From Hysterangium stoloniferum (lineage: Eukaryota; Basidiomycota; Agaricomycetes; Hysterangiales; Hysterangiaceae): a stretch of DNA of 64,000 nt. Below are positions 14,442 to 62,176 of this stretch, one piece after another. Location of the stretch: NCBI GenBank assembly GCA_015178975.1, contig WHVD01000001.1:2418001-2482000 (forward strand). The letters are read 5' to 3'. The translations under genes and the position numbers were made by a program. How positions within the stretch are numbered: position 1 is the stretch's first letter; each line of letters starts with the position of its first letter. The notes under the pieces were generated by a model. That model saw nothing but the letters and a program-made list of their open reading frames with translations, ran no database searches and was not told where the DNA came from.

Positions 14442-15126
14442 ATATAGTTAACTGATACCTCCAGCATTGGGAGATTTAACAGCGAAAATTGAGCGGAAGT
14501 CATATCCAATACTGAAAAAGTTAAAAATATCACAAGTTCCATCTCATCCATCTTTATTCTTCATCCAAAGGCATAAGTGACATATCGCTACAACGCCATA
14601 TGTCAGTAGCACATCATGGTATTTTTCATGCTACTCGATAAACTTAATGATAAGATCGTGCGTCTCGTCTTTTAATGACGAATGATGAATCTAATCCATT
14701 GTATTCCAGCAGTTCCACTACGGAAAAAGTCCACACCGTGATTACGGCCATTGAATATGAGTGTGTCGTTGGTGGGATCAACACTGCATTTCCCCTACCA
14801 ATCCGGCGCACCATCCCAAGGCACAACCAATAACAAATACAGCGCCTCGACGTGCCAAAGAGCAACTATGACAAACCATGGAAATAATCGTGCGGCTTTT
14901 TTTTTAATGACGAATGATCTATCTAATCCATTATATTCCAGAAGTTCCACTACGGACAAAGTCCACACCATAATTACGGCCTTTGAATATATGTGTGTCG
15001 CTGTTGGGATGAACACTGCATTTCCCCTACCGACCCGGCGCTCCATCCCAGGGCACAGCCAACAGCAAATACAGCGCCTCGACGTACCAAAGAGCGACTA
15101 TCTACTAAGATCATCGATCATCACTC
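14442..15126 (+). promoter_or_regulatory. Upstream region of K1, with its promoter block duplicated
   Basis: The block that precedes every K copy starts from CATATGTCAG and runs through AATGACGAATGAT, ACTGCATTTCCCCTACC and AATACAGCGCCTCGACG to the start ATG. Here it is present twice: a diverged copy at about 14600-14870 and a better one at about 14885-15126. The second lacks its distal part. An older shared module (GGGAGATTTAACAG) precedes at 14470, as at 32877 and 41500. Promoter role is inferred from position and conservation. Confidence 0.55.
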
Positions 15127-17729
15127 ATGGAAATTGCAGCAATTGTTGTCAAAGTCGCTGGCGATGCCGTTCCAGTACCTGGCTTAAAGAGTGCAGCGCC
15201 CCTTCTTTTGGAGATTATGAACGCTATAAAGGTGGGTCGTCCGCATCAACACTAGTTTAAGAGTTGATGTGGATGATGATTCACAATCACCAGGCAAGCG
15301 GGGAGCAAAACGAGAGATTGAATAACCTTGTCCAGACCACTGGACGTCGCCTCGTCGCTTTCCACGATCAGCTGAGGGGGAAGTGGGAGAATATCCCGGA
15401 CAATTTCAAAACCATATTGGACGATTATCAGAAGTAGGAACTTGAGACTCACTGAGTAGCGGTACTTGACGAATAAATCGATTGCTTCAGTGCACTTGAG
15501 GATGTTCTTGCGCTTGCAAGGTCATACAAACCAAGAAAGGGTCTCAAATCACACGTGTCTTGGATGCGACAACGAGATAGGTCTATCGCCAAACTTGAAA
15601 GGCGATTGGAAGAAGCGGAGAAAGGGGCAATGGTGCGTGCTGAAAGTGACACTTAGAGTCGGTCGTGATACATATTGGGTCTTAGATGTATTTCTCGCTG
15701 GATACCTCATTAGCCGTCGCTCAACTCGTAGCCGTTGATGATGCCAGAATGGACGATATCATACGTCAATTACGCGGCATCCTTGATTCGTTTTCATCGG
15801 TCACGGGCAGAGGAAGAAACGATATTAGTGAACACGTGCGCTCGTTCTGTGCACTCAAAGATGATGGCCGTGGGCTTATAGTATTGATATAGTGTTTGGT
15901 TCATAGAAGGAATTTCCAAGTGTTACGCACCATATCGATCGCGAACCATAATTGTTATGATGATGAAAAGGCAGGACATCATCGGGTCGCCTTGCGGTGG
16001 AGTGTTAAACTTTGTGAAGCGAAGGCTGAAAGTGACGGTAAGTCGGTATTGGTCAAATTGTACGAAGGCGGGAGACCCACATGGGATTTGAGACACAAAG
16101 AGGTACGAGTTCTGTTTTGCCTGGTTTGGATTTCAGAAACTATTTGCAACACACCACACTTTTGATATAGTTCCAACGCGACCTCACCTCCTATCAAGAC
16201 GTGTGGTAAGAATGAAACACATCGGATTAAATAACCCAAGTAGTCCAATCATATTCATGTTCAGGGATCCTAGCGTTGCTGAGTTCTTGGGCTACAGTAA
16301 CGCACAAGACAATGTACTTTTCCAAGTTTTCCGTAATCCGGGCCCTGAACCTGAGGACGCATGCAATTGGCTCGAACGCACTAGATTATCCGGTCCGAGA
16401 GAAACCATTTTGGGACTATGGGACATGGTGAATGAAATTACGCGCGATATTTACAAGCTAACACGATATATTTTAGAGGGATTCTTACAATGTGACGTAC
16501 TTTGGTACCTTCTCTCCCGAAATACTGATGTGACAATGTGACATTAGGAATTAGTTGAATTCTGTGCAAACAACGAAATTTTTATTTACCAGCTTGTTCA
16601 TTAATTCGACTGACATCAGATGTCAATCATAACTTTGTCAATTCAGTTTTATCTTCCCGGTGATTCAATTGTCACTGTCACAGACTGTCCTGCCAATCGC
16701 CGTCATCTGAAGCTTGTGTACACCGGAACACTGCGTAGTCCCCACTACAGGGGCTGGCATCCCGGTATTTATACCGGTCACTCTAGGATCAATCCATCAT
16801 CACCGGACTCCATCGTAAACTTATTCATACCCGATGTGTATTCATGGCGTCTCGGCACGGCTTTAATGGATGAACAACTTCGAAGCTCGCACACCATTCA
16901 TCAATTAGCCAATCAACTACTGGACTTCGAGTTTCTGCAACCAATTACGTACGCTTTCGAGGATGGAGATCTGGGGTACATCGCTTTGTGGGACGTGGGT
17001 TATCGGGATAAAGTTACAGGCGATTTTGTAATGTGTGGGAATCTACATGAGTGGTTCTCTGAAACCCTCGGGATAGAACCCTTAGTCGGTGTTCATGTGA
17101 ACCTCGGCTACTCTAGGTTTAGAAATTTAGATGAGGGTGAGAGTGTAACAATACGAGGTAGAAAACCAATGAGAAGGTATTTTTGGAGCTAGCACACTGA
17201 CCGATCGTTGCTCAGTTTTCTGCCGCGTAGATATACCTATGATATTGGCGAAGGCAGCATCGAAGGTTTCTGCCGGCCCACTATCTATATGGTAGACTCA
17301 GGCCAGTCGTCTGAAGTTCAGAAAGCGTGGAGAGCATACGCACCCCTTTACATGGAGGAAAATGGGATCAAGGGTGTCCTTCCACACGAGTTGATGATCA
17401 GTAAGCACAGAAGTCTTTTGGGAATGATATTGACCCCTTTGTGACAACAGTAAACGGATGGATGACACAAGTAGTTGTGGAAATGCCTCAGAATTTGTTT
17501 GCTTCACTTCCCCCTTCATCAACGTCAGAGCCTGACAAAGTAATTTAGTCACTCCGGAGATGTGGAACCGCGTGCCATATTCTTGTTTGAACCTACTTCT
17601 CCACGTTATATTTCTAGCCCCTCGGGGGGACCTGTCCTGGATGTGCAGTTGCGCGCTTCTTATGATGCGGAGCCCAGTTGGATTAATGACCTCGTGTGGC
17701 CGGACACGGTATCCGAGCCAGACCCGTGA
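15127..17729 (+). pseudogene. K1: MLKL/HeLo-like helical domain plus kinase-like protein, near-complete but interrupted
   Basis: Exons 15127-15231, 15294-15433, 15491-15632 and 15686 onward encode the N-terminal domain: IAAIVVKVAGDAVPVPGLK, then HDQLRGKWENIP, LEDVLALARSYKP and the charged coiled stretch RQRDRSIAKLERRLEEAEK. This order resembles the MLKL-type four-helix domain of fungal signalling proteins. Next come GKSVLVKLYEGG and DPSVAEFLGYS, like a kinase N-lobe; no HRD or DFG motif was seen. An intron at 16530-16619 leads to a domain starting PGDSIVTVTDCPANRRHLKL, which I do not recognise; a 39-bp intron (17177-17215) follows. The last piece ends at TGA 17727-17729. An in-frame TAG at 15890-15892 breaks the chain before the kinase-like part, and the link between FLPRRYTYD and the last exon could not be closed. 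A role in cell death or recognition is inference from the domain only. Confidence 0.6.
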
Positions 17730-18002
17730 GCTTCGATGTTGTCCTCATTTAATAGCATTAACGTCTTGAATAAGGTGGAGACGTTATTTTCAGCTACCTA
17801 GGTGCATATGGGAGGAGGATTAAACTTGGACATGATCACACCCATGGAACATTTTCCCGTCAAGTCTAACTATATCATTCTGTGATACAAAAGCCCTTTA
17901 TTTACTGCTCTGGAGCTCTGCCCATAATTCAATTGTGAACAAAGAATACGTGAATGTTAATTTTCAAAAATAACTACAAAAAAAGTAGTTCTTCGCCGTA
18001 AC

Positions 18003-20033
18003 TGTGTGACATCGCGTAACATGTGCTGGAGTCCTGCGTCTTGCGCTCATTCTTCCTCCCAGACTTTCTCGCATTCCCAGCCCTCGTCTTTCAAAATATT
18101 TTCAGAGAGACGAAACACTACAATGCTTTGAAAAAGAAGTATGTCCTCCGTTCTTCCAATGGAAATGAGATTTCCTTTATTATGCTTACGCTCCAACCAC
18201 GCGATTTAATAGGATCTACTTGAAGGCATCGACGTGTGCCTCCCGTGCTTGGATAGAGTGTGTGTGGGGGGCGATGTGACTCGGATGCATGTGCAACTGC
18301 ATTGTGGGATGCTTGGGTGTCCGTGTATGTGAAGAGCATGCTGGAGCCGAACCCGAAACGCGTGAGTAGGGTGTTTTTTTTCTTCTGTGAGCAGCTGAGT
18401 ATGAGCTGGGAAGTTTTGATGATTAAGTTGGTGGCGTTGGTGATAGAACAGTAGCAGACCGCCGCTTAGGAACCTACTGTCGAGGACACGGAGAAGGACA
18501 ATTATGAGTGTATGCCGACAGTGAGATATTGGGCTTGTCATGGCCAAGGAACGAGGTCATTTCTTGACGAGTCGAATCATCCTGAGGTCCGTCATAGTCG
18601 TATAATGTTTTCGAGCCTGTCTCCCCTGCAAGACTGAGGGGACACCGCAATCTCGGAAACAGCTGCTACATGGCATCAACATCGATACTCACACTTCCAG
18701 CCTTCCGCACATACCATCCCTGATCCTTTCCCACCCGTTCCTGTTCCTGCACCGAAGAGCTCCCCATATCCTGTTTTGACTTTCAGATGCGCAAAATCGC
18801 GGAAGGAATCCGTTCAGGCTGGTTTTCCCACTGTCGCAGCCATTTCCCGTCTCACACCGCCGGTGTCCCTGCCCTCGTCGAAGTGCTGGTCCGGCCGCGG
18901 AACCAATGCCATCGATGGTGATCCCCTCGTTCATCCCCGACGCCACTGCCCATATAACAAGAACCCATCAAACCCACCGTGTTCAAATCCCTCATCAGAA
19001 GAGTCCGCAAAGAAATCTCGATGACGAAACAGCAAGACGCGCAAGAGTTCTTCGCATATATTCTTAAAGTCCTGCGTCAGCAAGTTAAAAACACGTCCCG
19101 GAGCCGGAGCCTACTGTCATCCTCTGCTTTGAGGTGGAGCAAGAGTCACGGTGTATGTTGTGCAAGGGTTTGCGCGCTAGTTTGTGGACGAGCATGATGA
19201 ATTCAGCGTGGGTATCCGATCCCGGCTTTAGAGAGGTGTTGTATGTGCGGGGGAGGCTGTGTGTGTACGTAGGGGACAGGATGGGTAAACCTGCGGTTGA
19301 GTATTCGTGCCCGTGGTGCGAGGCAGGGGTTCCACCGCAGACGTGAGTCTTTCAAAGTGTCGTCTCAGTACTCTAGGCTGATGCTGACCTGGTTGTGGAT
19401 GTGTTTCCAGACGCGCATTGTACATGCCACGAATTTTCTGCACGTGAGTTGGGTGCCTACAAAACTTGGTCAGTGGTGGCTATTCTCCCTTCAACGCGTA
19501 TCATGGACAAGGAGGGAGGCCATTCCTTGAAGAGTCGAGTCATCCTCAGGTACCTACCTCATACTCGCCCAATGGGTTTGAGCCTGTCATATCTCAAGGA
19601 CTGACATGGCTCAGGGATCTGGGAAACAGTTGCGACATGGCGTCCACCCTCCAATCAATATTCACACGTCCAACCTTCCGCATATACTATCCCTAACTCC
19701 GGCCGCTCCCGTCCGAAAGGCCCCCCCCCTCCCAATGTTCAATACTGCCCGCTCGCAGCCATTCCCTACCGGTCGTTGTCAGAAGGCATTATTTGCTACC
19801 AGGAATAGTGGCGCAGAGGCAGTTGTAGTGGTTGATTGGACAGATGGAGGCTCCGCGTGTAATGTTGATGATATTAGACATCGTCGTTCGCCCCTTTTTC
19901 TTTTGTCATTACAGGCGTCGATGGTCCTTCGCTGCAGTCGAAAGTTGCGGCGGCAAGTGACATTGGGCCTGAACCCTCTGTGGAGTAGATAAATATGATA
20001 GAGGATCTGGGATGTATGTTATATGGTGAGTAA
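18003..20033 (+). pseudogene. U1: UBP14/USP5-type ubiquitin hydrolase relic
   Basis: Pieces of a UBP14/USP5 protein occur in order: the N-terminal region (RIPSPRLSKYFQRDETLQCF, intron, then GIDVCLPCLDRVC) as before the ZnF-UBP domain; the catalytic cysteine box NLGNSCYMAS (18649-18678) followed by LPAFRTYHP; the conserved TKQQDAQEFFAY (about 19022); a CPWCEAG pair (about 19306); a second, partial cysteine box GNSCDMAST (about 19618); and UBA-like ends RCQKALFATRNS and IEDLG (19790-20015). In the family these enzymes disassemble free polyubiquitin. Stops (for example TGA after RTYHP) and frameshifts are frequent, the histidine box was not found, and the segment ending in the cysteine box is present twice, so it cannot be active. 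Confidence 0.75.
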
Positions 20034-20483
20034 CTGCACGCATACAGGCATACATGCAATACATATATGTTTGCTGTGAACATAATAATGAACATCTCAC
20101 CACTGCAACATGCAAGATTCGGATCAGAGAAGGATCGATGGGATATTATTTTGTAACCTGCAACCAACTGTCAAGATTGGTCATAAATGTCTAGAATGAT
20201 ATGGGGGTACGAGGGTTTCGAGCAATGCGAAACAGATATCTGGTTACCATCAGGGTCCATGCCATTTTGCATGGGGAGCTCGTTCCAAAGATTCAACGCA
20301 GTGTAATGATTCACATAGAATTTGTTATTAGTACAAGAAGCGTAAGTAAAGGCATGACAGCCTATGTAACTTATTTAATTTTATGTGGGACTGCATGCGA
20401 TAAAGAGCAAGAAGGTGGATGCAGCGGTACTGCTAACTGAAGAAAGACGATCAATGGCTAATCACCCTCAGCACATCATGGTA
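20034..20483. other. Spacer shared after U copies
   Basis: The sequence from GGTGAGTAACTGCA with CATACATGCAATACAT repeats, through TTATTTAATTTTATGTGGGA, to CGATCAATGGCTAATCACC also follows U4 (40630-41175) and in part U3b (32060-32310). It is the constant 3' flank of the duplicated unit; no gene is seen. Confidence 0.6.
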
Positions 20484-22392
20484 CTTGATTCATTTTCGTC
20501 CGTCACGGGCAGAGGCAGCAATGATTTGGTGAACACGCGTACGCCCGTTCTGTCATCTCAAAGATCTTGTCCGTGGGTTTATCATAATGAGACAGTATTT
20601 GGTCGATCGAAGGGACTTGCAACTGTTACGCACGTTATCGGTCGCGAACCACAATGATTATGACTATGAAAAGGCAGGAAATCATGGGGTCACCTTGCGG
20701 TGGAGTGTCACACTTTGCGAAGCGAAGACTGAAAGTCGATATTGGTCAAGGTGGGAGACCCACGTGGGATTTGAAACGCAAAAAGGTACGAGTCCCGTTT
20801 TGGCTGGTTTGAGTTTCAGAAAGGATTTGCAACTTTTGATATAGTTCTAACGCGACCTCACTTCCTATCAAACGTATGGTAAGAATGCAACACATCAGAT
20901 TAAATAACCCAAGTAGTCCAATCACATTCATGGTCAGGGACCCTAGCATTGCTGAGTTCTTGGGCTACAGTAACGCACGAGACAATGTACTTTTCCAAGT
21001 TTTCCATAATCCGGGCACTGAGCCTGAGGACGCATGCAAATGGCTCGAACGTACTAGATCATCCGGTGTGAAAGAAACCATTTTGGCACTATACGACATG
21101 GTGAATGAAATTACTCGCGATATTTACAAGCTAACGCGATATACTTTAGAGGGATTCTTACAATGTGACGTGCTTGGATACCTCCTCTCCCGCAAATGCT
21201 GATGTGACAATGTGACATTAGGAATTAGTTGAATTCAGTTCAAACAACGAAATTGAAATTCACTTCGTTGTTCGTTAATTCGACTGACATCAGATGTCAA
21301 TCATAACTTTGTCTATTCAGTTTTTGAATCCCGGTGATTCAATTGTCACTGTCACAGACTGTCTTGCCAATCGCTGTCATCTGAAGCTTGTGTTTACCCG
21401 AACACTGTTTCGTGGCCAAAGATACTACGGGATCTGGTATCCCGGTGTTTATACCGGTTACTCTAGGATCAATCCATCATCACCCGACTGCATCGTAGAC
21501 CTATTCATGTCCAAAGTGCGTTCATGGTGTCTCGGCACTGCTTTAATGGATCAACAACTTCGAAGCTCGCACACCATTCATCAATTGGCCAATCAACTAC
21601 TGGACTTCGAGTTTCTGCGACCAATTATGGGCTATATGGACAATGAAGATCTGAGGGACATCGCTTTGTGGGACGTGGGCTATTGGGATAAAGATACAGG
21701 TCATTTTGTAGTGTGTGGGAATCTACATGAGTGCTTCTCTGAAACCCTCGGTATAGAACCCTCAGTCAAGGTTCGTGTTAGCATCGACAAGCATACGTCT
21801 AGATATTTAGCCGAGGGTAAGAGTGTAACAATACGAGGTGGAAAACCAATGAGGAGGTATTTTTCGAGCTAGTACACTGACCCGATCGTTGCTCAGTTTT
21901 CTGCCGCGTAGATATGCCTTTGATACTGGCAAAGTCGGTATCGAAGATTTCTGCTGGCGTTATCTCACGATCGAATATCTCTGCCGGCCCTCGTGTGAAG
22001 TGCAGAGAGCATGGAGAGCATACGCACCGCTTTACATAGAGAAAAATGGGATCAAGGGTGTCTCTCCACACGAGTTGATTATCACTAAGCACAGGAGTCT
22101 TTTGGAAATGATATTGAACCCTTTGTGGCACCAGTAAACGAATGGGAGACACAAGTAGTTGTGGAAATGCCTCAAAACCTGTTTGTTTCACTTCCCCCTT
22201 CACCAATGTGAGAGCCTGACAGAGTAATTTAGTCACTCCGGAGATGTGGAACCGCGTACCATATTCCTCTTTGCCCCTACTTCTCCACGTTATATTTCTG
22301 GCCCTTCGGGGGCGCGCGCTTCGTATGATGCGGAGCCCAGTTGGATACATGACCTTGTGTGGCCGGACACAGTATTTAAGCCAAACCCGTGA
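20484..22392 (+). pseudogene. K2: 5'-truncated K copy
   Basis: Exons 1-3 are missing. The promoter string GCACATCATGGTAC runs straight into exon 4 sequence (TTGATTCATTTTCG) near 20484. It then keeps the kinase-like segment (20587 onward, without the TAG of K1), DPSIAEFLGYS, and the PGDSIVTVTD domain open from 21294 to the 3' intron. An extra base at 21196-21201 (CGCAAATGCTGA against the K1 frame) makes a stop before the PGDSIVTVTD exon. A short deletion also removes GKSVLVK. The last exon lacks the GGPVLDVQL stretch, through a small deletion, and ends at TGA 22390-22392. Confidence 0.7.
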
Positions 22393-22669: not shown

Positions 22670-23541
22670 TATGTGCTGGAGTCCTACGTCTTGCCTCCAT
22701 TCTTCCTCCCAGACTTTCTCGCATTCCCAGTCCTCGTCTTTCAGAATCTTTTCAGAGAGAAGCAACAGCACAATAATTTGACAAAGGAGTATGTACTCCT
22801 TTCTTCCAATCGAAATCAGATTTCACCGATCATTCTTACGTGCTTGCTATCCACGCGACCTAATAGGATCTACTTCAAGGCATCGATATGATCCTCCCGT
22901 ACTGTGATGGAGAGTGTATAGGGGATGATGTGACCCGGATTCATGTGCAGCTGCATTTGGGATGCTTGGGTATCCGTGTATGTGAAGACCATGCTGGAAC
23001 CGAACCCGAGATGAGTGAGTAGCGTGTTTTTTTTTCTTCGGTGAGCAGCTGACTATGAGCAGGGAAGATTTAATGATTGAGTTGGTGGCGTTGGTGATAG
23101 AACAGTAGCGCACCGCTGCTCAAGAACCTTGCTACTGTCGAGGACACAGAGAAGGACAATTATGAGTGTATACCGACAGTGAGATATTGGGCTTGTCATG
23201 GACACGGAACGAGGTCATTTCTTGATCAGTTGAATCATCCTGAAGTCCGTCAGATTCGTGTAATGTTTTCGAGCCTGTCTCCCCTGCAAGACTGACGGGA
23301 CTCCGTAATCTCGGAAACAGCTGCTACATGGCATCAACATTGACATTCACACTTCCAACCTTCCGCACATACCATCCTTTATCCTTTCTCACCCATGCCT
23401 GTTCCTGCATCGAAGAGTTCCCCATATCCTGTTTTGACTTTCAGATGCGCATGAGAGCGGACTGAATCCGCTCAGGCTGGTTATCGCACCCTCGCGGCCA
23501 TTTACCGTCTCACACCTCCGGTGTCATTACCACCGCCAAAG
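22670..23541 (+). pseudogene. U2: 3'-truncated UBP14-like relic
   Basis: It follows K2 with the usual spacing. It carries the N-terminal block, the CHGHGTRSFLD block (about 23190) and the cysteine box region (NLGNSCYMAS, about 23309). Homology to the other U copies stops at about 23541, before the QQDAQEFF segment. Stops and frame changes are present throughout. Confidence 0.7.
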
Positions 23542-27184: not shown

Positions 27185-27477
27185 ATTGGTATAACCTCGT
27201 TCCTTACCACCCCAGGTCGTACTTCTTTGTGTCTCAAATTTCAAGTGGGTCTCCCGCCTCGTACACGTTGACCAACACCGGCTTACCGTCACTTTCAGTC
27301 TTCGCTTCACAAAGTTTAACACTCCACCGCAAGGTGACCTGATGATTTCCTGCCTTTTCATAATAATAATCATTGTGGGTCGCGACCGATAAAGTATGTA
27401 ACAGTTGCAACTTCTTCGGTGGATCAAATACTGTCTCATTACGATAAGCTCACAGGCATGATCTTTGAGATGACAGA
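27185..27477 (-). pseudogene. K3i: inverted scrap of a K gene
   Basis: The minus strand encodes the kinase-like N-lobe segment with SVKLCEAKTESDGK-type sequence and the GRPTW block, decayed. It meets the plus-strand K3 copy at about 27477/27478, so the two lie head to head with both inner ends lost. The end of exon 4 (TGTCATCTCAAAGATCATGCC) is the last part kept. Confidence 0.65.
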
Positions 27478-28679
27478 GGAGATGGCATCCCGGTATTTAT
27501 CCCGGTGACTCTAGGATCAATCCATCCTCACCCGACTCCATCGTGAATTTATTCATGCCCAAAGTGGATTCATGGTGTCTCGGCACGGCTTTAATGGATC
27601 AACAAATTTGAAGCTCGCACACCATTCATCAATTGGCCAATCAACTACTGGACTTCGGGTTTCTGGAACCAATCACGGGCTCTATCGAGGATGGAGATCT
27701 GGGGTCCATCGCGTTGTGGGACGTGGGCTATCGGGATAAAGTTACAGACCATTTTGTAGTGTGTGGGAATCTACAAGAGTGGTTCTCTGAAACCCTCGGT
27801 ATAGAACCCTTAGTCGAGGTTCGTGTTCACCTCAACGAGCGAGCGTCTAGATATTTAGACGAGGGTGAGAGTGCAATAATATGAGGTGGAAAACCAATGA
27901 GAAGGTATTTTTGGAGCTAGCACACTGACCTGATCGTTGCTCAGTTTTCTGCCGCGTAGATATACCTATGATATTGGTGAAAGCAGTATCGAAGCTTTCT
28001 GCCGGCCCAGTGTCTATATCACAGACTTAGCCCCGTCGTCTGAAGTGCAGAAAGCGTGGAGAGCGTACGCACCGCTTTACATCGAGGAAAATAAGATCAA
28101 GGGTGTCCTTCCACACGAGTTGATGATCAGTAAGCATAGAAGTCTTTTGGGAATGATATTGACGCCTTTCTGACAACAGTAAACTACTTTAGGACAACAG
28201 TAGTTTTTGAAATGCCTCAGAATTTGTTTGTTTCACTTCCCCCTTCATCAATGTGACAGCCTGACAGAGTAATTTAGTCACTCTGGAGATGTGGAACCGC
28301 GTAACATATTCTTGTTTGAACCTACTTCTCCGCGTCATATTCCTGGCCCCTCGGGAGGACCTGTCCTGGATGTGCAATTGCGCGCTTCTTATGATGCGGA
28401 ACTGTAATCCTGGTGCCCAGTCTTACGCACGGACCCTTTAGTTTTACGTGATTACATAATCACCGTGTTGTAAGGTATAAGTAGCCGGGAAGTTTTCAGG
28501 ACCTTAGATCTTACCGTACGCTGCACTTGCCTGTATCTTGTTCTGCTCTGGACAATACACCGTGGTCCTGTCAACTTGTGTGACCGCCAGTGATCCCAAT
28601 TGACGACGGGATTACAGGAACCCACTTGGATAAATGACCCTGTGTGGCCGGACACGGTATTTGAGCGAGACCCGTGGGT
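27478..28679 (+). pseudogene. K3: 5'-truncated K copy, split by a solo LTR
   Basis: Begins inside the PGDSIVTVTD domain (at GGCATCCCGGTATTTATCCC) and runs through IALWDVGYRDKV, WFSETLGIEP and LPRRYTYDIG to the last exon. Defects are a TGA early in the fragment (AACAAATTTGAAGC, 27601-27612), an in-frame TGA at the end of the domain (27882-27884) and loss of the usual terminal stop (CCCGTGGGTG instead of CCCGTGAG). A 214-bp solo LTR sits in the last exon at 28403-28616. Confidence 0.7.
28403..28616 (+). mobile_element. Solo LTR (family C) in K3, TSD GGAAC
   Basis: TGTAATCCTGG at the start and GACGGGATTACA at the end, with GGAAC on both sides (28398-28402 and 28617-28621). Taking it out rejoins the K last exon (GATGCGGAAC-CCACTTGGAT against GATGCGGAGCCCAGTTGGAT in other copies). 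A second copy of this family is at 32554-32795. Confidence 0.95.
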
Positions 28680-30575: not shown

Positions 30576-30579
30576 TGGA

Positions 30580-41991: not shown

Positions 41992-42815
41992 CACAGGTAC
42001 TTGACTCGTTTTCGTCGGTCACGGGCAGAGGAAGAAATGATATTAGTGAACGCGTACGCCCGTCCTGTCATCGTAACGCCCGTGGGCTCGTCTTAATGAA
42101 GTATTTGGTCGATCGAAGGGACTTGCAACTGCTACACACCATATCCATTGTGAACCATAATTATTATGATGATTAAAAGGCAGGAAATCATCGGGCCGCC
42201 TTGCGGTGGAGTGTCAAACTTCGTGAAGCGAAGACTGAAAGTCGGTATTGGTCAAAATGTACGAAGGTGGGAGACCCAGGTGGTGTTGGATTTCGAGCAT
42301 CATACAAGCTCATATTCTTTTGTTCCTTTTCCCCATTGTCCTCTTGTCTCACATCCTTGTTGTTTTCCTCATTAGGATTCCATTGTTCCTGTTGTATATA
42401 TATGTAGCTATGTGTGAATATAGCTCCCCGCGCGTTTGCGAGGGTCCCTGCTATACTCGGGTGAGGTCGAAGTCCATCTCATCTCAACAGGTGGGATTTG
42501 AGACACAAAAAGGTATGAGATCTCTCTTGTTTGGATTTCAGACACTATTTGAAACATATCACACTTTTTACATAGTTTCAACGTGACCTCAATTCCTATC
42601 AGGACCTTGAATAAGAATGCGACACGTCAAAGGACGTGGGCTGCCGAGTGCTTGGGCTACAGTAACACAAGACAATGTACTTTTCCAAGTTTTCCGTAAT
42701 CTGGGCCCTGAACCTGAAGACGCATGCAAATGGCTCGAACGCACTAGATCATCCGATGTGAGAGAAACCATTTTGGGACTATGGGACATGGTGAATGAAA
42801 TTACTCACGATAAGG
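41992..42815 (+). pseudogene. K5: short K fragment, truncated at both ends
   Basis: Starts with promoter sequence fused to exon 4 at TACTTGACTCG, the same junction type as K2, and keeps the kinase-like segment, the block starting FRNLGPEPEDACKWLERTRS, and ILGLWDMVNEITHD. It ends abruptly near 42811. A family E solo LTR (42284-42489) sits inside GGRPTWDL. Deletions of a few bases and shifted frames are common. Confidence 0.7.
42284..42489 (+). mobile_element. Solo LTR (family E) in K5, TSD GGTGG
   Basis: TGTTGGATTTCG at the start and CATCTCAACA at the end, with GGTGG on both sides (42279-42283 and 42490-42494). Removal gives GAGACCCAGGTGGGATTTGAG, the K sequence. It contains a GTATATATATGTAGC TATA-like stretch and a C/T-rich upstream half. 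Confidence 0.92.
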
Positions 42816-45242: not shown

Positions 45243-47837
45243 ATGGACATTGCAGCTATTGTTGTCAAAGTCGCTGGCGATGCCGTTCCAGTCCCTGGCT
45301 TAAAGAGTGCAGCGACCCTGGTTTTGGAGATTATGAACGCTATAAAGGTGGTCGTCTGCATCAACACTAGTTTAAGAGCTGATGTGGATGATGATTCACT
45401 ATCACCAGGCAAGCGGGGAGCAAAACGAGAGATTTAATACCCTTGTCCAGACCACTGGACGTCGCCTCGTCGCTTTCCACGATCAGCTGAGGGGGAAGTG
45501 GGAGGACATCCCGGACGATTTCAAAGCTATATTGGACGAGTATCAGAAGTGAGAACGTGGGACTCACTGAGTAATCGTACTTGACGAATAGATCGATTGT
45601 TTCAGTGCACTTGAGGATGTTCTTGCGCTTGCACGGTCATACACACCAAGAAAAGGTCTGAAAGCACACGTCGTGTCTTGGATGCGACAACGAGATAGGT
45701 CTATCGCCAAACTGGAAAGGCGATTGGAAGAAGCGGAGAAAGAGGCAATGGTGCGTACTGAAAGTGACACTCAGAGTCGTTTGTTATACATATTGGCTCT
45801 TAGATGTATTTTTCGCTGGGTACTTCATTAGCCGTTGCTCAACTCCTAGCCGTCGATGATACCAGAATGGACGATATCATCCTTGATTCGTTTTCATCGG
45901 TCACGGGCAGAGGAAGAAGTGATATTAGTGACCGCGTACGCCCGTTCTGTCATCTCAAAGATCATTTCCGTGGGTTTATCATAATGAGGCAGTATTTGAT
46001 CGATCGAAGGGACTTGCAACTGTTACGCACCTTATCGGTCGCGAACCACATTGATTATGACTATGAAAAGGCAGGAAATCATGGGGTCACCTTGCGGTGG
46101 AGTGTCACACTTTGTGAAGCGAAGACTGAAAGTGACGGTAAGTCGGTATTGGTCAAAAAGTACGAAGGGGGGAGACCCACGTGGGATTTGAGACGCAGAC
46201 AGGTACGAGTCCCGTTTTGGCTGGTTTGGGTTTCAGAAACTATTTGTAAAATAACACAGTTTTGATATAGTTCCAATGGGACCTCACTTCCTATCAAGAC
46301 GTATGGTAATAATGCAACACATCAGAGTAAATAATCCGAGTAGTCCAATCACATTCCTGTTCAGGAACCCTAGCATTGCTCCGTTTTTGGGCTACAGTGA
46401 CGCACAAGACAATGTACTTTTTCAAGTTTTCCGTGATCCAGGCACTGAACCAGAGGACGCATGCAAATGGCTGGAACGCACTAGATCATCCGATGTGAGA
46501 AAAACCATTTTGGGACTGTGGGACATGGTGAATGAAATTACGCGCGATATTTACAAGCTAACGCGATGTATTTTAGAGGGATTCTTACAATGTGACGTAC
46601 TTGGATACCTTCTCTCCCCGCAAACGCTGATGTGACAATGTGACATTAGGAATTAGTTGATTTCTGTTCAAACAACGAAATTGATATTAACCTGCTTGTT
46701 CGTTAATTCGACTGACATCAGATGTCAATGATAACTTTGTCTATTCAGTTTTTTATGCCCGGTGATTCAATTGTCACTGTCACAGACTGTCCTGCCAATC
46801 GCCGTCATCTGAAGCTTGTGTACACCGGAACACTGCTCCCAGGGTACTATGGGAGATGGTATCCCGGTATTTATCCCGGTCACTCTAGGATCAATCCATC
46901 ATCACCCGACTCCATCGTAACCTTATTCATGTCCAAAGTGTATTCATGGTGTTTCGGCACGGCTTTAATGGATGAACAACTTCGAAGCTCGCACACCATT
47001 CATCAATTGGCCAATCAACTACTGGACTTCGGGTTTCTGGAACCACTTCAGGACTATATCGAGGATGGAAATCTGGGGTCCATCGCTTTGTGGGACGTGG
47101 GCTATCGGGATAAAGTTACAGGCGATTTTGTAGTGTGTGGGAATCTACATGAGTGGTTCTCTGAAACCCTCGGTATAGAACCCTTCGTCAACGTTTTTGT
47201 TCGCCTCGGCAACCATGGGTCCAGATATTTAGACGAGGGTGAGAGTGTAACAATACGAGGTGGAAAACCAATGAGAAGGTATTTTTGGAGCTAGCACACT
47301 CACCCGATCGTTGCTCAGTTTTCTGCCGCGTAGACATAGCTATGATATTGGCCAAGTCAGAATCGACGATTTATGCGGGCCCAGTGTCTATATCAGAGAC
47401 TTAGGCTCGTCGTCTGAAGTGCAGAAAGCGTGGAGAGCATACGCACTACTTTACATAGATGAAAATGGGATCAAGGGTGTCCTTCCACACGAGTTGATGA
47501 TCAGTAAGCACAGAAGTCTTTTGGGAATGATATTGACCACTTTGTGACAACAGTAAACCACGTTAGGACAACAGTAGTTGTGGAAATGCCTCAGAACGTG
47601 TTTGTCTCACTTCACTTCCCCCTTCATCAATGTGAGAGCCTGACAGAGTCATCTAGTCACTCCGGAGATGTGGAACCGCGTACCATATTCCTGTTTGAAC
47701 CTACTTCTCTACGTTATATTTCTGGCCCCTCGGGGGGACCTGTTCCAGATGTGCAGTTGCGTGCTTCTTATGATGCGGAGCCCAGTTGGATAAATGACCC
47801 TGTGTTGCCGGACACGGTATTTGAGCCACACCCGTGA
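45243..47837 (+). pseudogene. K6: best-preserved K copy
   Basis: Exon 1 (45243-45347), exon 2 with HDQLRGKWEDIPDDFK, exon 3 with RQRDRSIAKLERRLEEAEK, and exon 4 (45804 on), which runs open through the site of the K1 TAG into RQYLIDRRDLQLLRT, VALRW-type sequence, SDGKSVLVKKYEGGRP and the FQWDLTSYQDV exon. The next exon carries NPSIAPFLGYS and ETILGLWDM-type sequence. A frameshift before the PGDSIVTVTD exon (CTCCCCGCAAACGCTGATG, two extra bases against K1) ends the frame at 46635; that exon itself is open (46722-47294). The last exons end DVEPRTIFLFEPTS to EPHP and TGA 47835-47837. Exon 4 lacks the six codons RQLRGI present in K1, K7 and K8. With one repair site only, this is the copy closest to function, yet as read it is broken. 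Confidence 0.65.
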
Positions 47838-48124: not shown

Positions 48125-49781
48125 GTGTGACATCGCGTAACATGTGCTGGAGTCCTGCGTCTTGCGCTCATTCTACCTCCTAGACTTTCTCGCCTTCCCA
48201 GCCCTCGTCTTTCAAAATATTTTAAGAGAGAAGAAACACTACAATCATTTGACAAAGAAGTATGTCCTCCGTTCTTCCAATGAAATCAGATTTCACTTCT
48301 TATGCTTACGCACCAACCACGCGAACTAATAGGATTTACTTGAAGGCATCGACTTGTGCCTCCCGTGCTTGGATAGAGAGTGTGTGAGGGGCTATGTGAC
48401 GCGGATGAATGTGCAGCTGCATTGTGGGATGCTTGGGTATCCGCGTGTGTGAAGAGCATGCTGGAACCCAACGCGAAACGAGTGAGTAGGGTGTTTTTTT
48501 TATTTTTTTTTAATTCTGTGAGCAGCTGAGTATGAGCTGGGAAGTTTTGATGATTGAGTTGGTGGGGTTGATGATAGAATAGTAGCGGACCGCTGCTCAA
48601 GAACCTTGCTACTGTCGAGGACACGGAGAAGGACAATTATGAGTGTTTGCCGACAGTGAAATATTGGGCTTGTCATGGACAAGGAACGAGGTCATTTCTT
48701 GACGAGTCGAATCATCCTGAGGTCCGTCATACTCGTGTAATGTTTTCCAGCCTGTCTCTCCTGCAAGACTGAGGGGACTCCGCAATCTCGGAAACAGCTG
48801 CTACATGGCATCAACATCGATACTCACACTTCCAGCCTTCTGCACATACCATCCCTGATCTTTCTCACCCGGGCCTGTTCCTGCACCGAAGAGCTCCCCA
48901 TATCCTGTTTTGATTTTCAGATGCGCAAAATCGCGGACAGAATCCGTTCAGGTTGATTATTGCACCGTCGCAGCGATTTCCTGTCATCGCCGGTGTCCGT
49001 CCCTACCCCCGTCGAAGTTCTGGTGAGGCCGTGGAACCAATGCCATCGGAGTCCCTGCCATCGACGATGATTACCTCGTCCATCCTCGACGCCACTGCCG
49101 GTACTCCAAGAACCCATCAAACCCACCATGTTCCAATCCCTCATCGGAAGAGTCCACGAAAAATTCTCGATGACGAAACAGAAAGATGCTCAAGAGTTCT
49201 TCGCATATATATTCTTAAACCTCTGCGGCAACAAGCTAAAAACACGTCCCCAATCCAGAGCCTACTGTCATCTTCTGCTTTCAGGTGGAACAAGAGTCAC
49301 TGTGTATGTAGTGCAAGTTGTGTGTGCTAGCTTGTGGACGAGGATGATGATTTCAGCGTGGGTATCCGATCCCGGCTTTAGAGAGGTGTTGTATGCGCGG
49401 AGGAAGCTGCATGTGTGCGTAGGGCACAGGATGGGTAAACCTGCGGTTGAGTATTCGTGTCCGTGGTGCGAGGCAGGGGTTCCACCGCAGACGTGAGTCT
49501 TTCATAGTGTCGTCTTGCTATTATAGGCTGATACGACCAGGTCGTGGATGTGTTTCCAGAAGTTCACGTGTTGTAACTTTCCCTAACATCTTTGTTGTAC
49601 ATGCGACGAATTCTTTGCACGTGAGGTGGGTGCCTACAAAACGTGGTCAGCGGTGGTTATTCTCCCTTCAACGCGTGTCATGGACAAGGAGGGAGGCCAT
49701 TGCTTAAAGAGTCGAGTCATCATCAGGTACCTACCTCATACCCGCCCAATAGGTTCGAGCTTGTCTTCTCTCAAGGGCACA
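48125..49781 (+). pseudogene. U6: UBP14-like relic in the left arm
   Basis: It contains the N-terminal block (48144), the CLPCLD-type block, the DTEKDNYECLPTVKYWACHG segment (48621-48680), the cysteine box NLGNSCYMAS (about 48785), MFQSLIGRVHEKFSMTKQKD with AQEFFAYIF (49128-49217; QQDA is changed to QKDA), the CPWCEAG pair (about 49460), and the MDKEGGH block. It ends at the centre of the inverted repeat before the duplicate cysteine box. Frameshifts separate most blocks. Confidence 0.7.
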
Positions 49782-50010
49782 CGGGCAGCAGGAGACGGGA
49801 AATGGGTGGGAGGTGCGATTGCTGGCCTGAGAGGACTCCGCCATTTTGGCATCTGACGGTCAATACAGGACGCGAGGAGCTGTTGGGTGCAGGAGCAGGG
49901 CTGGGTGAGAAAGGATAGGGGATAGTATATGCGGAAGGCTGGAAGTGTGAGTATCGATGTTGATGCCATGTAGCAGCTGTTTCCCAAATCACTGAGTCAT
50001 GTCAGTCCTT
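49782..50010. other. Centre spacer of the inverted repeat
   Basis: About 229 bp not mirrored in the left arm. On the minus strand it holds the duplicate U cysteine-box block (GGGAAACAGCTGCTACATGG, from 49986) continuing to TGCCAAAATGGCGGAGTCC, so it is the natural continuation of U7. The left arm lost this part or the inversion was made off-centre. Confidence 0.75.
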
Positions 50011-51650
50011 GAGAGAAGACAGGCTCGAACTCATTGGGCGAGTATGAGGTAGATACCTGAAGATGACTCGACTCTTCAAGGAATGGCCTCCCTCCTTGTC
50101 CATGACACGCGTTGAAGGGAGAATCGCCACCACTGACCAAGGTTTGTAGGCACCCACGTGCAAATAATTCGTCGCATGTACAACAAAGATGTTAGGGAAA
50201 GTTACAACACGTGAACTTCTGGAAACACATCCACGACCTGGTCGTATCAGCCTATAATAGCAAGACGACACTATGAAAGACTCACGTCTGCGGTGGAACC
50301 CCTGCCTCGCACCGCGCGCACGAATATTGAACTGCAGGTTTACCCATCCTGTCCCCCACCCACACATGCAGCTTCCGCCGCGCGTACAACACCTCTCTAA
50401 AGCCGGGAACGGATACCCACGCTCAAATCATCATGGTCGTCCACAAAATAGCGCGCGCACCCTTGCACTACATACACAGTGACGACTGTTGTTCCACCTC
50501 AAAGCAGAGGATGACAGTAGGCTCCGGCTCCGGGCGTGTTTTTAACTTGCTGACGCAGGACTTTAAGAATATATATGCGAAGAACTCTTGCGCGTCTTGC
50601 TGTTTCGTCATCGAGATTTCCTCGTGGACACTTCCGATGAGGGATTTGAACATGTGGGTTTGATGGGTTCTTGGAATACGGGCAGTGGCGTCGGGGATGA
50701 ACGAGGGATCACCGTCGATGGCATTGGGTCCGCGGCCTCACCAGCACTTCGACGAGGGTAGGGACACCGGCGGTGTGAGACGAGAAATGGCTGCGTGGGT
50801 GGGATAACGGCCTGAACGGATTCGGTCCGCGATTTTACGCATCGGAAAGTCAAAATAGGATATGGGGAGCTCTTCGGTGCAGGAAGAGGCGCGGGTGAGA
50901 AAGGATGAGGGATGGTATGTGCGGAAGGCTGGAAGTGTGAGTATCGATGTCGATGCCATGTAGCAGCTGTTTCCGAGATTGCGGAGTCCCGTCAGTCTTG
51001 CAGGGGAGACAGACTCGAAAACATTACAAGAGTATGACGGACCTCAGGATGATTCGACTCGTTAAGAAATGACCTCGTTCCTTGTCCATGACAAGCTCAA
51101 TATCTCACTGTCGGCAAACACTCATAATTGTCCTTCTTCGTGTCCTTGACAGTAGCGAGGTTCTTAAGCGGCGGCCGGCGACAGTTCTATCACCAACGCC
51201 ACCAACGCAATCATCAAAACTTCCCTGCTCATACTCAGCTGCTTACAGAAGAAAAAAAACACCCTACTCACTCGTTTCGGGTTCGGTTCCAGCATGCTCT
51301 TCACATACACGGATAGCCAAGCATCCCACAATGCAGCTACACATGCATCCGCGTCACATCCTTCCCCTCACACACTTTATCCAAGCACGGGATGCACACG
51401 TCGATGCCTTCAAGTAGATCCTATTAGATCGCGTGGCTAGGGCGTAAGCATAATAAGTGAAATCTCATTTCCATTGGAAGAAAGGAGGACATACTTCTTT
51501 GTCAACGCATTGGGTTGTACCTTCTCTTTGAAAAGATCCTGAAAGACGAGGACTGGGAATGCGAGAAAGTCTGGGAGGAAGAATGAGTGTAAGACGCAGG
51601 ACGCCAGCACATGTTACGCGATGTCACACAGTTACGGCGAAGAACTACTT
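50011..51650 (-). pseudogene. U7: UBP14-like relic in the right arm
   Basis: Read on the minus strand: N-terminal block (about 51620-51480), GIDV-type block (51400), cysteine box LGNSCYMAS (about 50987-50961) with an unusually long open stretch LPAFRTYHPSSFLTR to MRKIADRIRSGRYPTH, then MFKSLIGSVHEEISMTKQQD and AQEFFAYIF (50653-50564) with EPEPTVILCFEVEQ. A one-base loss (CCCACATG for CCCACCATG, about 50655) shifts the frame between these two blocks. This is the copy in which the UBP14 identity is easiest to see. Confidence 0.78.
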
Positions 51651-51914: not shown

Positions 51915-54236
51915 TTACGGGTCTCGCGCAGATACCGTGTCCGGCCACACAGGGTCATTTATCCAACTGGGCTCCGCATCATAAGAAGCACGCAACTGCA
52001 CATCTGGAACAGGTCCCCCCGAGGGGCCAGATATATAACGTGGAGAAGTAGGCTCAAACAGGAATATAGTACGCGGTTCCACATCTCCGGAGTGACTAAA
52101 TTAATCTGTCAGGCTCTGACATGGATGAAGGGGGAAGTGAAACTAACAAATTCTGAGGCATTTCCATAACGACGTGTGTCTCCCATTCGTTTACTGTTGC
52201 CACAAAGGGGTCAATATCATTTCGAAAAGACTTCTGTGCTTACTGATCATCAACTCGTGTGGAAGGACACCCTTGATCCCATTTTCCTCTATGTAAAGTG
52301 GTGCGTAGGCTCTCCACGCTTTCTGCACTTCAGACGACGGGTCTAAGTCTGCGATATAGATGGGCCGGCAGAAATCGTCGATACTGGCTTCACCAATATC
52401 ATAGGTATATCTACGCGGCAGAAAATTGAGCAACGATCGGGTCAGTGTGCTAGCTCCAAAAATACCTTTTCATTGGTTTTCCACCTCCTATTGTTACACT
52501 CTCACCCTCGTCTAAATAACTAAACCCATGGTTGCCGAGGCAAACACAAACATTGACAAAGGGTTCTATACCGAGGGTTTCAGAGAACCAGTGATGTAGA
52601 TTCCCACACACTACGAAATGGCCTGTAACTTTATCCCGATAGCCCACGTCCCACAAAGCGATGGACCCCAGATCTCCATCCTCGATGTGACCCGTGATTG
52701 GTCGCAGAAACCCGAAGTCCAGTAGTTGATTGGCCAATTGATGAATGGTGTGCGAGCTTCGAAGTTGTTGATCCATTAAAGCAGTTCCGAGACACCATGA
52801 CTCCGTTTTGGAGATGAATAAGTCTACGATGGAGTCGGGTGATGATGGATTGATCCTAGAGTAACTGGTATAAATACCGGGATACCATCTCCCATAGTAC
52901 CCTAACGGGTCACGGCTGACCAGTGTTCCGGTGTACACAAGCTTCAGATGACGGCGATTGGCAGGACAGTCTGTGACAGTCACAATTGAATCACCGGGAT
53001 GGAAAAACTTGGTCAGGGCCCGGATTACGGAAAACTTGGAAAAGTACATTGTCTTGTGCGTTACTGTAGCCCAAGAACTCAGCAATGCTAGGGTCCCTGA
53101 ACATAAATGTGATTGGACTACGTGGGTTATTTAATCTGATGTGTTGCATTCTTACCACACGTCTTGATAGGAAGTGAGGTCGTGTTGAAACTATATCAAA
53201 AGTGGGATACGTTGCAAATAGTGTCGCAAACCCAAACCAGCCAAAGCAGAACTCGTACCTCTTTGCGTCTCAAATCCCACGTGGGTCTCCCGCCTTCGTA
53301 TATTTTAACCAATACCGACTTACTGTCACTTTCAGTCTTCGCCTCACAAAGTTTGACACTCCACCGCAAGGCGACTCGATGATTTCCTGCCTTTTCATCA
53401 TCATAATGATTATGGTTCGCGATCGATATGGTCCGTAACACTTGGAAATTCCTTCTATGAACCAAACACTATATAATTACTATAAGCCCACGGGCATGAT
53501 CTTTGAGATGACAAAACGAGCGTACGTGTTCACTAATATCGTTTCTTCCTCTGACCGTGACCGATGAAAACGAATCAAGGATACCGCGTAATTGACGTAT
53601 GATATCGTCCATTCTGGTATCATCGACGGCTACGAGTTGAGCGACGGCTAATGAAGTATCCAGCAAAATGCACATCTAAGAGCCAATATATAACGAACGA
53701 CTCTGAGTGTCACTTTCAGCACGTACCATTGCCTCTTTCTCCGCTTCTTCCAATCGCCTTTGCAGTCTGGTGATAGACCTATCTCGTTGTCGCATCCAAG
53801 ACACGACGTGTGCTTTAAGACCTTGTCTTGGTGTGTATGACCTTGCAAGCGCAAGAACATCCTCAAGTGCACTGAAAACAATCGATTTATTAGTCAAGTA
53901 CGGTTACCCAATGAGTCTCAAGTTCTCACTTCTGATAATCGTCCAATATAGTTTTGAAATCGTCAGGGATATTCTCCCACTTCTCCCTCAGCTGATCGTG
54001 GAAAGCGACGAGGCGACGTCCAGTGGTTTGAACAAGAGGATGCAATCTCTCGTTTTGCTCCCCGCTTGCCTGGTGATTGTGAATCATGATCCACATCAGC
54101 TCTTAAACTGGTGTTGATGCAGACGACCTACCTTTATAACGTTCATAATCTCCAAAACCAGGGTCGCTGCACTCTTTAAGCCAGGCAATGGAACGGCATC
54201 GCCAGCGACTTTGACAACAATGGCTGCAATGTCCAT
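51915..54236 (-). pseudogene. K7: K copy in the right arm, internal deletion
   Basis: ATG at 54236; exon 2 with GEQNERLHPLV-type sequence; exon 3 with SWMRQRDRSITRLQRRLEEA; exon 4 with RQLRGILDSFSSV and the shared TAG (about 53474). The kinase-like exon (SNAQDN-type sequence) is then joined directly to FHPGDSIVTVTDCPANRRHL near 53013, which removes the remainder of that exon and the following intron. The domain continues to WFSETLGIEP and LPRRYTYDIG and ends at TAA 51915-51917. K4 and K7 share the TAA terminus. Confidence 0.7.
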
Positions 54237-54539
54237 GAGCGATAGTCGATGATCTTAGTAGATGGTGAGAGATAGTTGCTCTTTGGCACGTCGAGGCGCT
54301 GTATTTGTTATTGGCTGTGCCTTGGGATGGTGCGCCTTTATAACGTTCATGATCTCCAAAACAAGGGTTGCTGCACTCTTTAAGCCAGGGAGCGGAACGG
54401 CATCGCCAGCGACTTTGACAACAATGGCTGCAATGTCCATGAGCGATGGTCGATGATCTTAGTAGATGGTGAGAGACAGTTGCTCTTTGGCACGTCGAGG
54501 CGCTGTATTTGTTATTGGCTGTGCCCTGGGATAGTGCGC
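54132..54539 (-). repeat. 204-bp tandem duplication of K7 exon 1 and leader
   Basis: Bases 54132-54335 and 54336-54539 are near-identical direct repeats, each holding exon 1 and about 100 bp of leader. Two start codons result (54236 and 54440). The outer copy is spliceless because its exon runs into the leader of the inner one. Confidence 0.85.
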
Positions 54540-60053: not shown

Positions 60054-60783
60054 TCCTGGTCCCCCTATGCCCTAACCCCTCCTCACATATTTTTGGAACA
60101 GGAGACTTTGTCTGCTTTCCAATGATACATGAGTCGCATTTGGGGGGGGGCAGTAGTTGAGGCTGGTCGCGCACCTTTCATCAGGCCATTGTTGAGCATG
60201 TCAGTGATGGATTTGTAGTTAGCATGCCCAAGGCGGCGGTGCCAAGTCTCGAGAGTGGGTAGATTTTGCATGATGAGAGCATGTTCCACTTGTGCAGAGT
60301 GTAGCATCAATGAGTAGGTTTTTGTGTGTGAGTAAGGAGCCACAGGCAATTATGGAGTTAGATGACTTGGTACTGAGCCAACAAGAGTCATGATCGAAAT
60401 GTGCGATAACGTTGGAGTCACAAGTGAGGTATCGAACCGAGATTAAGCATACGACTGCTTCAGGGATGTAAAGCACGTCCCGAAGAAGGATGTGGGATCC
60501 TCGGCCTAGACGTATTTTGATATCGCCTATTCCAATGGCCCATATAGATGATCCTCCTAAACCTCTTACAGAACGAGGTGTGACGGCTCTTAAGGTGATG
60601 AAGTCGGTTTGATCAGGTGATATATGTATAGTTGCACTGCTATCCAACCAAAAGGGGTTAGTCTCCGTAGATAATGGAGTTCGGCTTGTTTGTGATAATG
60701 GTTGGACAGTAGAGGTGCTCAGGATGGTGAGAGATGGTTGACTGTGCTTGTTCCAATCCACGGTAGTTTGCAGCTCCTCCTCT
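60054..60783 (-). pseudogene. Ty1/copia protease and pre-integrase segment
   Basis: The minus strand encodes the protease motif FWLDSSATIHISPD (near 60650), LRDVLYIPEAVVCLISV, then the pre-integrase zinc motif WHRRLGHANYKS and CDSCIIGKQTKSP (H..H..C..C). Frameshifts near 60305 and at the G run 60142-60150 split it. Upstream Gag and the 5' LTR are missing: at about 60783 the frame runs into K8 sequence. Confidence 0.85.
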
Positions 60784-61628
60784 TTCATAGTCATAATCGT
60801 TGTGGTTCGCGACCGATATGGTGCGTAACAGTTGCAAGTCCCTTCGATCGACCAAATACTGTCTCATTACGATAAAACCACGGACATGATCTTTGAGACA
60901 GAACGGGCGTACGCGTTCACTAATATCGTTTCTTCCTCTGCCTGTGACCGATGAAAACGAATCAAGGATACCGCGTAACTGACGTATGATATCGTCCATT
61001 CTGGTATCATCGACGGCTACGAGCTGAGCGACGGTTAATGATGTATCCAGCGAAAAATACATCTAAAGAGCCAATATGTATAACGAGCGACTCCGATTGT
61101 CACCTTCTTTCAGCACGCACCATTGCCTCTTTCTCCGCTTCTTCCAATCGCCTTTGCAGTCTGGTGATAGACCTATCTCGTTGTCGCATCCAAGACACGA
61201 CGTGTGCTTTAAGACCTTTTCTTGGTGTGTATGACCGTGCAAGCGCAAGAACATCCTCAAGTGCACTGAAAACAGTTATTTGTTTGTCAAGTCCGGTTAC
61301 CCAGTGAGTCTCAAGTTCTTACTTCTGATAATCGTCCAATATAGTTTTGAAATTGTCCGGGATATTCTCCCACTTCCCCCTCAGCTGATCGTGGAAAGCG
61401 ACGAGGCGACGTCCAGTAGTCCGGACAAGGTGATTCAACCTCTCGTTTTGCTCCCCGCTTGCCTGATGGTTGTGAATTATGATCCACATTAGCTCTTAAA
61501 CTAGTGATGATGCAGACGACCTGCCTTTATAACGTTCATGATCTCCAAAACAAGGGTTGCTGCACTCTTAAGCCAGGGAGCGGAACGGCATCGCCAGCGA
61601 CTTTGACAACAATGGCTGCAATGTCCAT
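60784..61628 (-). pseudogene. K8: 3'-truncated K copy fused to copia
   Basis: ATG at 61628; exons 1-4 of the MLKL-like domain with RQRDRSITRLQRRLEEAEK and FSLDTSLTVAQLVAVDDTRM, then RQYLVDRRDLQLLRTISVAN without the TAG. The first exon has a one-base loss (CTTAAGAGTGC for CTTAAAGAGTGC, about 61568) and its donor is GCAGGT instead of GTGGGT. The copy stops at DYDYE, where copia sequence begins. Confidence 0.75.
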
Positions 61629-62176
61629 GAGCGGTGGTCGATGATCTTAGTAGATGGTGAGAGACAGTTGCTCTTTGGCACGTCGAGGCGCTGTACTTGT
61701 TATTGGCTGTGCCCTGGGATAGTGCGCCGGATTGGTAGGGGAAATGCAGTGTTGATCCCACCAACAACACACTCATATTCAAAGGTCGTAATCACGGAGT
61801 GGACTTTGTCCGGAGTGGAACTGCTGAATAGAATGGATTAGATAGATAATTCGTCATTCAAAGAAATGCGGCACGATCTTTTCAATGGTTTGTCGACCAA
61901 AATGATAGTGCAGTGATGTGCTAACTGACATATGGCGTTGTAGCGATAGGTCAGTTGTGCCTTGCTTAATAAATAATAAAAGAAGTATGGGATGGTTGTA
62001 ATAAAATCGATTGGAAAAAGTAGTCTATGATTGAAATTTACTTTTCGGGAATTTGCGGTGCTACTATCCACGCTGGCGCACTCGCTCGTTGTCACATTTG
62101 TCTCGCCAATCATGTATGATATAGCTATTTTGTATTTGAGTCCTACTAAATTACACGGTGTGCATTATGCATAAAA
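61629..62176 (-). promoter_or_regulatory. Promoter block of K8 and distal flank
   Basis: Reverse of the conserved block (CATATGGCGTTGTAGCGATAG, GATGTGCTAACTG, TAGGGGAAATGCAGTG). It stays alike to the K7 upstream region out to CACGGTGTGCATTATGCATAAAA (62154-62176), then changes to retroelement sequence. Confidence 0.55.

Follow-up and report, generated by a model that had tools for sequence, protein, structure and literature searches.

A megabase-long array of partly open K genes in Hysterangium stoloniferum as a candidate recognition family, carrying a decayed UBP14-like fragment

A 64,000-nucleotide stretch of the Hysterangium stoloniferum genome (contig C1, positions 2418001-2482000; hereafter the window) holds a repeated block in which a multi-exon gene, here called K, is followed by a fragment, here called U, that resembles a deubiquitinase gene. 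All comparisons were made within one assembly of 111.1 Mb and 554 contigs. An earlier note, made from the sequence of the window, had described an array of paired K and U genes, sharing strand and all broken, and suggested that the two could be either a functional pair or just a block that had been duplicated. The K-then-U block is indeed a duplicated unit that recurs in the window, the longest match between units covering 4.8 kb at 88% identity. An exon inventory recovered K1, K2, K3, K4 (with K5), a scrap at 42.0-42.8 kb, K6 and inverted copies at 51.9-54.4 kb and 60.8-61.6 kb, the latter truncated (Table 1). The common strand holds for K1 to K6, although K3 also contains an inverted piece, and fails for the last two copies. 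Judging from the order of the pieces, K5 is probably the detached 3' half of K4, ~2.3 kb off; the ~2.3 kb between their complementary exon-9 parts (35044-37372) is probably an insertion. Window copies other than K1 and K6 are truncated or interrupted.

Table 1. K and U copies in the window (window coordinates).
Feature	Position	Strand	Content	Basis
K1	15127..17729	+	predicted intact 12-exon gene, 658 aa	open frame, 11 GT-AG introns
K1 exons 1-6	15127-15231, 15294-15433, 15491-15632, 15686-15835, 15893-16102, 16171-16205	+		
K1 exons 7-12	16265-16491, 16555-16595, 16647-17176, 17231-17400, 17451-17496, 17549-17729 (with stop)	+		
U1	18634..19693	+	UBP14-like relic, UCH pieces; second partial Cys-box repeat 19598-19690	UCH E=3.4e-11; stops and frame changes relative to UBP14
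K2	20478..22389	+	5'-truncated; exons 1-3 unmatched, exons 4 and 5 partial	exon inventory
U2	23292..23522	+	short UCH relic with a stop	comparison with UBP14
K3	27246..28674	.	broken; inverted exon-5 piece 27416-27246, then partial exon 9 (stop) through exon 12 (stop)	exon inventory
U3	29589..31219	+	UCH relic, several stops	comparison with UBP14
K4	33381..35043	+	exon 1 through first third of exon 9 (stop there), exon 2 in two frames; then interrupted	exon inventory
K5	37373..38284	+	remainder of an exon 9 through exon 12	exon inventory
U5	39185..40308	+	UCH relic with stops	comparison with UBP14
K scrap	41997..42811	+	portions of exons 4, 5 and 7; stop	exon inventory
K6	45243..47837	+	predicted intact 12-exon gene, 653 aa	open frame, 11 GT-AG introns, codon-level conservation
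K6 exons 1-6	45243-45347, 45409-45548, 45606-45750, 45804-45935, 45993-46202, 46271-46305	+		
K6 exons 7-12	46365-46591, 46657-46697, 46749-47278, 47334-47503, 47554-47599, 47657-47837 (with stop)	+		
K6 hypervariable part	46683..47573	+	exons 8-11	22/25 codons with amino-acid-changing diversity >3x intron diversity
U6	48769..49776	+	UCH relic	stops; no coding signature
U of inverted copy	49748..50995	-	relic	comparison with UBP14
Inverted K copy	51918..54440	-	broken; exon 8 and most of exon 7 missing, exon 1 twice (204-bp tandem repeat)	exon inventory
Inverted K copy	60775..61628	-	exon 1 to part of exon 5 only	exon inventory; match stops at copia-type coding sequence

A codon-frame scan of eight copies, two of them relatives with only ~60-73% DNA identity to the rest, revealed frames with few or no stops and amino-acid-similar changes across ~45230-47780, with short gaps between them. 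We read these gaps as introns because the aligned copies mostly retain donor and acceptor signals; the spacing between exons 3 and 4 is 47-58 nt across the aligned copies. The final predicted model has 12 exons, with 11 introns of 50-68 nt in K6. Under this model, K1 (658 codons) and K6 (653 codons) each form an uninterrupted frame to a single terminal stop, with all 11 introns GT-AG, contrary to the view that every copy is broken. Nor do the open frames, codon-level conservation and constraint in its copies support the view of K as a relic only. The earlier reader, working without a splice model, probably took K introns for damage.

To gauge how many copies are open, we aligned 25 K copies that retain a nearly full exon 9, after removing 11 truncated or duplicate loci, and judged each over the exons present. 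By this measure nine of the 25 are open, all their introns being GT/GC-AG. Six of these are complete (w1, w6, L022, L023, L035 and L072), and three have no 5' end in the aligned piece: L016 and L036, whose exon 1 is interrupted by the edge of the locus, and L073, which is open from exon 3, with 3.4 kb separating that exon from exon 2. Among diverged relatives, exons 1-4 were not found at L071, and the 1.7 kb upstream of exon 9 held no convincing exons 1-4 at L077-L080; in these five relatives outside the array the N-terminal part may have been exchanged, lost or placed further off. Diverged relatives do not generally lack the front end, because L070, also diverged, keeps exons 1-3 and exon-3 matches occur elsewhere on C17, C98 and C312.

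The K family covers ~1 Mb of contig C1 and extends to other contigs. Genome-wide, 103 of 106 candidates for exon 3 were matches (94/103 stop-free; 49/103 on C1, at 1.79-2.81 Mb), as were 139 of 145 for exon 10 (130/139 stop-free; 65/139 on C1, at 1.80-2.81 Mb). Exon 9 has at least 150 matches, 150 of 195 candidates having been scored; 110 of these at least 150 matches include 77 that are near full, 66 of them stop-free. Most copies genome-wide were judged from such single exons, and some small contigs duplicate units at 99.5-99.8% identity, so that the genome-wide counts are not all distinct genes, whereas the C1 counts describe one contig. Neighbouring exon-9 matches on C1 form long runs on one strand with several switches, and the array is largely head-to-tail, partly inverted and roughly megabase-long.

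Constraint is distributed unevenly along K. Across nine in-frame copies, omega, the ratio of amino-acid-changing (dN) to silent (dS) divergence, was 0.36 in codons 1-130, 0.45 in 131-174, 0.49 in 175-330, 0.83 in 331-600 and 0.41 in 601-653, constraint being strongest at the N terminus and weakest in codons 331-600. We then defined as hypervariable any codon whose amino-acid-changing diversity among 23 copies exceeds three times the intron mean of 0.122. Twenty-five of 652 codons qualified, with 3/330 in codons 1-330, 22/269 in codons 331-600 and 0/53 afterwards; intron triplets above the same level numbered 1/167, 0/165 and 2/161. The alternating codons 493, 495, 497, 499 and 501 are among the most variable, a pattern that would fit a beta strand with one face exposed.

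So that codons were not tested on the data used to choose them, we picked codons in a random half of the 23 copies and measured omega in the other half, over 20 splits. Held-out omega averaged 2.88 at the picked codons (2.29-3.89 over the 20 splits) and 0.53 at the remaining codons; each split picked 25 codons, of which 21.6 on average lay in codons 331-600. The putative sensor part of K thus contains codons with dN above dS, as a diversifying recognition family would. Furthermore, pairwise distances in six gene segments were nearly uncorrelated (r -0.08 to 0.33; 16 copies), indicating that segments have been reassorted among K copies. A recognition repertoire best explains K, in which live copies stand beside broken ones, segments are shuffled, and a conserved front is joined to a hypervariable back. 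We therefore favour, with a probability of roughly 55%, the reading of K as a diversified intracellular recognition family (immune or self/non-self) with a conserved effector end and a hypervariable sensor end, and of U as dead.

Several observations weigh against this reading. Sixteen of the 25 copies in the alignment do not qualify as open. Frameshifts or large changes affect 12 of them, and the other four fail narrowly: L025 through one acceptor, L031 through one stop, L015, whose piece lacks the front exons, through one stop, and L027 through one stop and one acceptor. The gene model is itself a prediction, supported by conservation and splice signals. Frame-shifted counts in codons 331-600 gave 20/268 triplets in the +2 frame and 8/268 in the +1 frame; the diversity counts therefore show hypervariable spots, and the frame itself comes from the open reading frame. 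K copies are related, so the held-out halves are not independent. Moreover, dS is raised at the hypervariable codons (0.26 held out versus 0.144 at other codons), and old shuffled variation therefore contributes. AlphaFold prediction of exon 9 alone from four window copies was unusable (mean predicted local distance difference test score 33). Finally, the effector and sensor roles are assigned from the pattern of change, because no Pfam or PDB family scored above threshold.

The raised dS and the shuffled segments are also what one would look for if conversion or mutation hot spots, and not selection, had produced the hypervariable codons. We consider this unlikely, since dN exceeds dS ~2.9-fold at the picked codons in held-out copies and nearby introns 7-11 remain at a nucleotide diversity (pi) of 0.064-0.099. 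The interrupted copies, which include most of those in the window, together with a median omega of 0.77 in exon 9 (30 copies), would likewise suit a functionless, decaying segmental duplication whose K copies are relics, young by chance; the nine open copies with canonical introns, the N-terminal omega of 0.36, held-out omega >2 at picked codons and the contrast between K and U in the same units make this improbable. Drivers of the wtf or Spok type are multicopy and fast-changing, include many dead copies and harm those without them. K is like these families in its multicopy arrays of mixed open and broken copies, and it has retrotransposon remains nearby, but a selfish or meiotic-drive family of this manner is an improbable account of diversification that centres on particular codons of one protein part while the other part is conserved.

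U, by contrast with K, is decayed wherever examined. The UCH (PF00443) match of U1 lies at window 18640-19125, and an apparently intact gene at ~50-52 kb of C312 carries a Cys box, a zinc-finger-like part, a UBA and a GHYVAH box. We take this gene, and the source of U, to be a UBP14/USP5 deubiquitinase (peptidase C19), the motif names likewise being our assignment. U pieces share with it the Cys box (67% identical), the QQDA box (49%) and the UBA (62%). Compared with a 247-residue open segment of the C312 gene, however, every matching U, in the window and at 17 of 18 loci (L073 gave no match, and some loci coincide with window copies or each other), has stops or frame changes. A codon scan of eight copies found no consistent coding frame in U. 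Divergence per site is 0.18-0.25 in U, where gaps amount to as much as 24%; ten of the 12 K exons diverge by 0.05-0.12, and the two short ones, exons 8 and 11, by up to 0.21-0.22. On the K-cluster contigs all UCH matches end by profile position 220 of 254, leaving the C-terminal end of the domain unmatched, and C1:2664381-2664809 is the only stop-free UCH match of at least 95 profile positions. No U copy compared kept an open frame with Cys and His boxes, and the earlier description of U as a broken UBP14-like (USP) relic is supported.

The spacing of K and U is nonetheless near constant, with a same-strand UCH match at most 2.5 kb downstream of 33 of the 77 near-full exon-9 matches and upstream of only 2, and the diverged K of L070 likewise has UBP14-like pieces on its flanks. 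Such linkage would be expected of a working pair in which a death kinase is checked or released by a deubiquitinase, the switch-and-release function that the earlier note had envisaged. With U broken wherever examined and lacking coding signal, that function did not survive scrutiny, and the pair is already largely refuted and very improbable. The spacing most likely reflects an ancestral duplicated unit, in which U looks like a dead hitchhiker copied along with K. A K-like exon 9 on C312, ~53 kb from the UBP14 gene, may hint at the origin of the K+U unit.

Repeats and transposon remains accompany the array. Tandem repeats occur near K-unit starts (232-bp pair, 14655-15101; 204-bp pair, 54131-54540) and elsewhere in the window (16-bp minisatellite of 18.8 copies, 1548-1847; 93-bp pair, 24879-25064). 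Coding remains of long terminal repeat (LTR) retrotransposons lie at 56538-60863 (-), 62516-63744 (+) and 2469-2819 (+), and comprise copia-type RVT_2/rve/Pol_BBD, gag-like (below cut-off) and Pol_BBD pieces and an RVT_1 fragment; the truncated inverted K copy stops at 60775, inside a reverse-strand copia-type Pol_BBD match (60222-60863). An Rfam scan of the window gave no match at gathering score. The genome gave five 5.8S matches of unequal score, and its 5.8S/internal transcribed spacer (ITS) region looks basidiomycete-like. Compared by eye with the 5.8S/ITS locus L075, the locus L076 shows numerous C/T and G/A changes, conserved rRNA positions included, resembling mutated ribosomal DNA copies.

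We next asked what the K protein resembles. By eye, its N terminus, encoded across four exons, is conserved and helical-looking (MDIAAIVVKVAGDAVPVPGLKSAATLVLEIMN...), and is followed by motifs in an order that we take to be that of a kinase N-lobe (SVLVK.YEGG...; DLTSYQDVW; LGYS...NVLFQVF) before the variable part begins. The MLKL/HeLo likeness proposed for K did not emerge from profile searches: Pfam MLKL_N reached E=0.073 in one of six full K proteins and was absent from 10/10 N-terminal sequences, no kinase family was found by Pfam in the six full proteins, and a K profile built from very similar sequences gave 0 PDB matches at E<=10. These tests are weak, the other five full proteins being 80-87% identical to the first and adding little information to the profile, and the likeness remains a lead. 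Single K exons and N termini gave only Pfam matches below curated cut-offs, and hhalign of the K N terminus against an MLKL_N protein of the same genome (L074) returned a probability of 0.1, at low power. A PF07714 search of the genome placed none of its 147 listed matches within the C1 array of K genes. Matches to ordinary protein kinases (PF07714) cluster at C2:1.008-1.027 Mb and on C509, with many short fragments among them. A PDB search with one K N terminus gave ten weak matches, the best (E=0.012) to myosin, which we took as coiled-coil chance.

Known systems offer partial parallels. Basidiomycotal MLKL-like (BaMLKL) domains, and HELL domains in kinase and pseudokinase proteins, have been published (portions of PMC9815663 and PMC12881547), and MLKL/HeLo-type proteins act in fungal allorecognition (portions of PMC10197012, PMC12881547 and PMC9815663). 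K is like these fungal proteins, by eye only, in its conserved helix-rich N terminus followed by a kinase-N-lobe-like stretch, and differs in being unmatched by Pfam MLKL_N, kinase and PDB profile searches; the same portions of PMC9815663 and PMC12881547 make no mention of a hypervariable part in a megabase array. Fungal NLR allorecognition receptors of the het-e/het-d type carry a variable WD40 sensor and share with K a conserved effector end, a diversifying sensor end and large repertoires (portions of PMC10197012). In contrast, Pfam found neither a nucleotide-binding domain (NACHT/NB-ARC) nor a repeat sensor (WD40/TPR/ANK) in the six full K proteins, and K varies in scattered codons, not repeats. 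No array of this kind, megabase-long and made of such genes with codons that are hypervariable, appeared in a search of titles and abstract starts of open-licence papers.

Taken as a recognition repertoire, K would be a partly living multigene family whose 12-exon gene encodes a protein of ~650 residues. The conserved, helical-looking N terminus would be the putative effector end, giving a common output, and codons ~331-600 would form the putative ligand-recognising surface, where some two dozen codons appear to diversify under positive selection. The ~1 Mb array would keep making and breaking K copies, and recombination among them would reassort segments, such that the array may act as a generator of recognition specificities directed at non-self or parasites; possible ligands would come from another strain, a virus or a bacterium. 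An intracellular location and a recognition role are what we infer for K, and its output through the N terminus would most plausibly be cell death or growth arrest, cell death being suggested by analogy, because of the unconfirmed resemblance to MLKL/HeLo proteins and the part these play in allorecognition in fungi. U would be a UBP14 fragment caught in the ancestral duplicated unit and copied along. More tentatively, and on balance doubtfully, K could be a single-gene receptor-executioner of new layout, in which an MLKL-type, necroptosis-like effector is fused to a hypervariable sensor and a megabase array makes new specificities by recombination.

If true, a receptor-executioner array would give fungi an equivalent of the polymorphic immune clusters represented by NLR, KIR or MHC regions. 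The case also illustrates that a sequence-only reading can misread an intron-rich multigene family as a gene graveyard. To our knowledge, the somatic-recognition genes of mushroom-forming fungi are poorly known, and an array of many open, shuffled K copies with a conserved front and a hypervariable back is a direct, testable candidate for a somatic-recognition repertoire.

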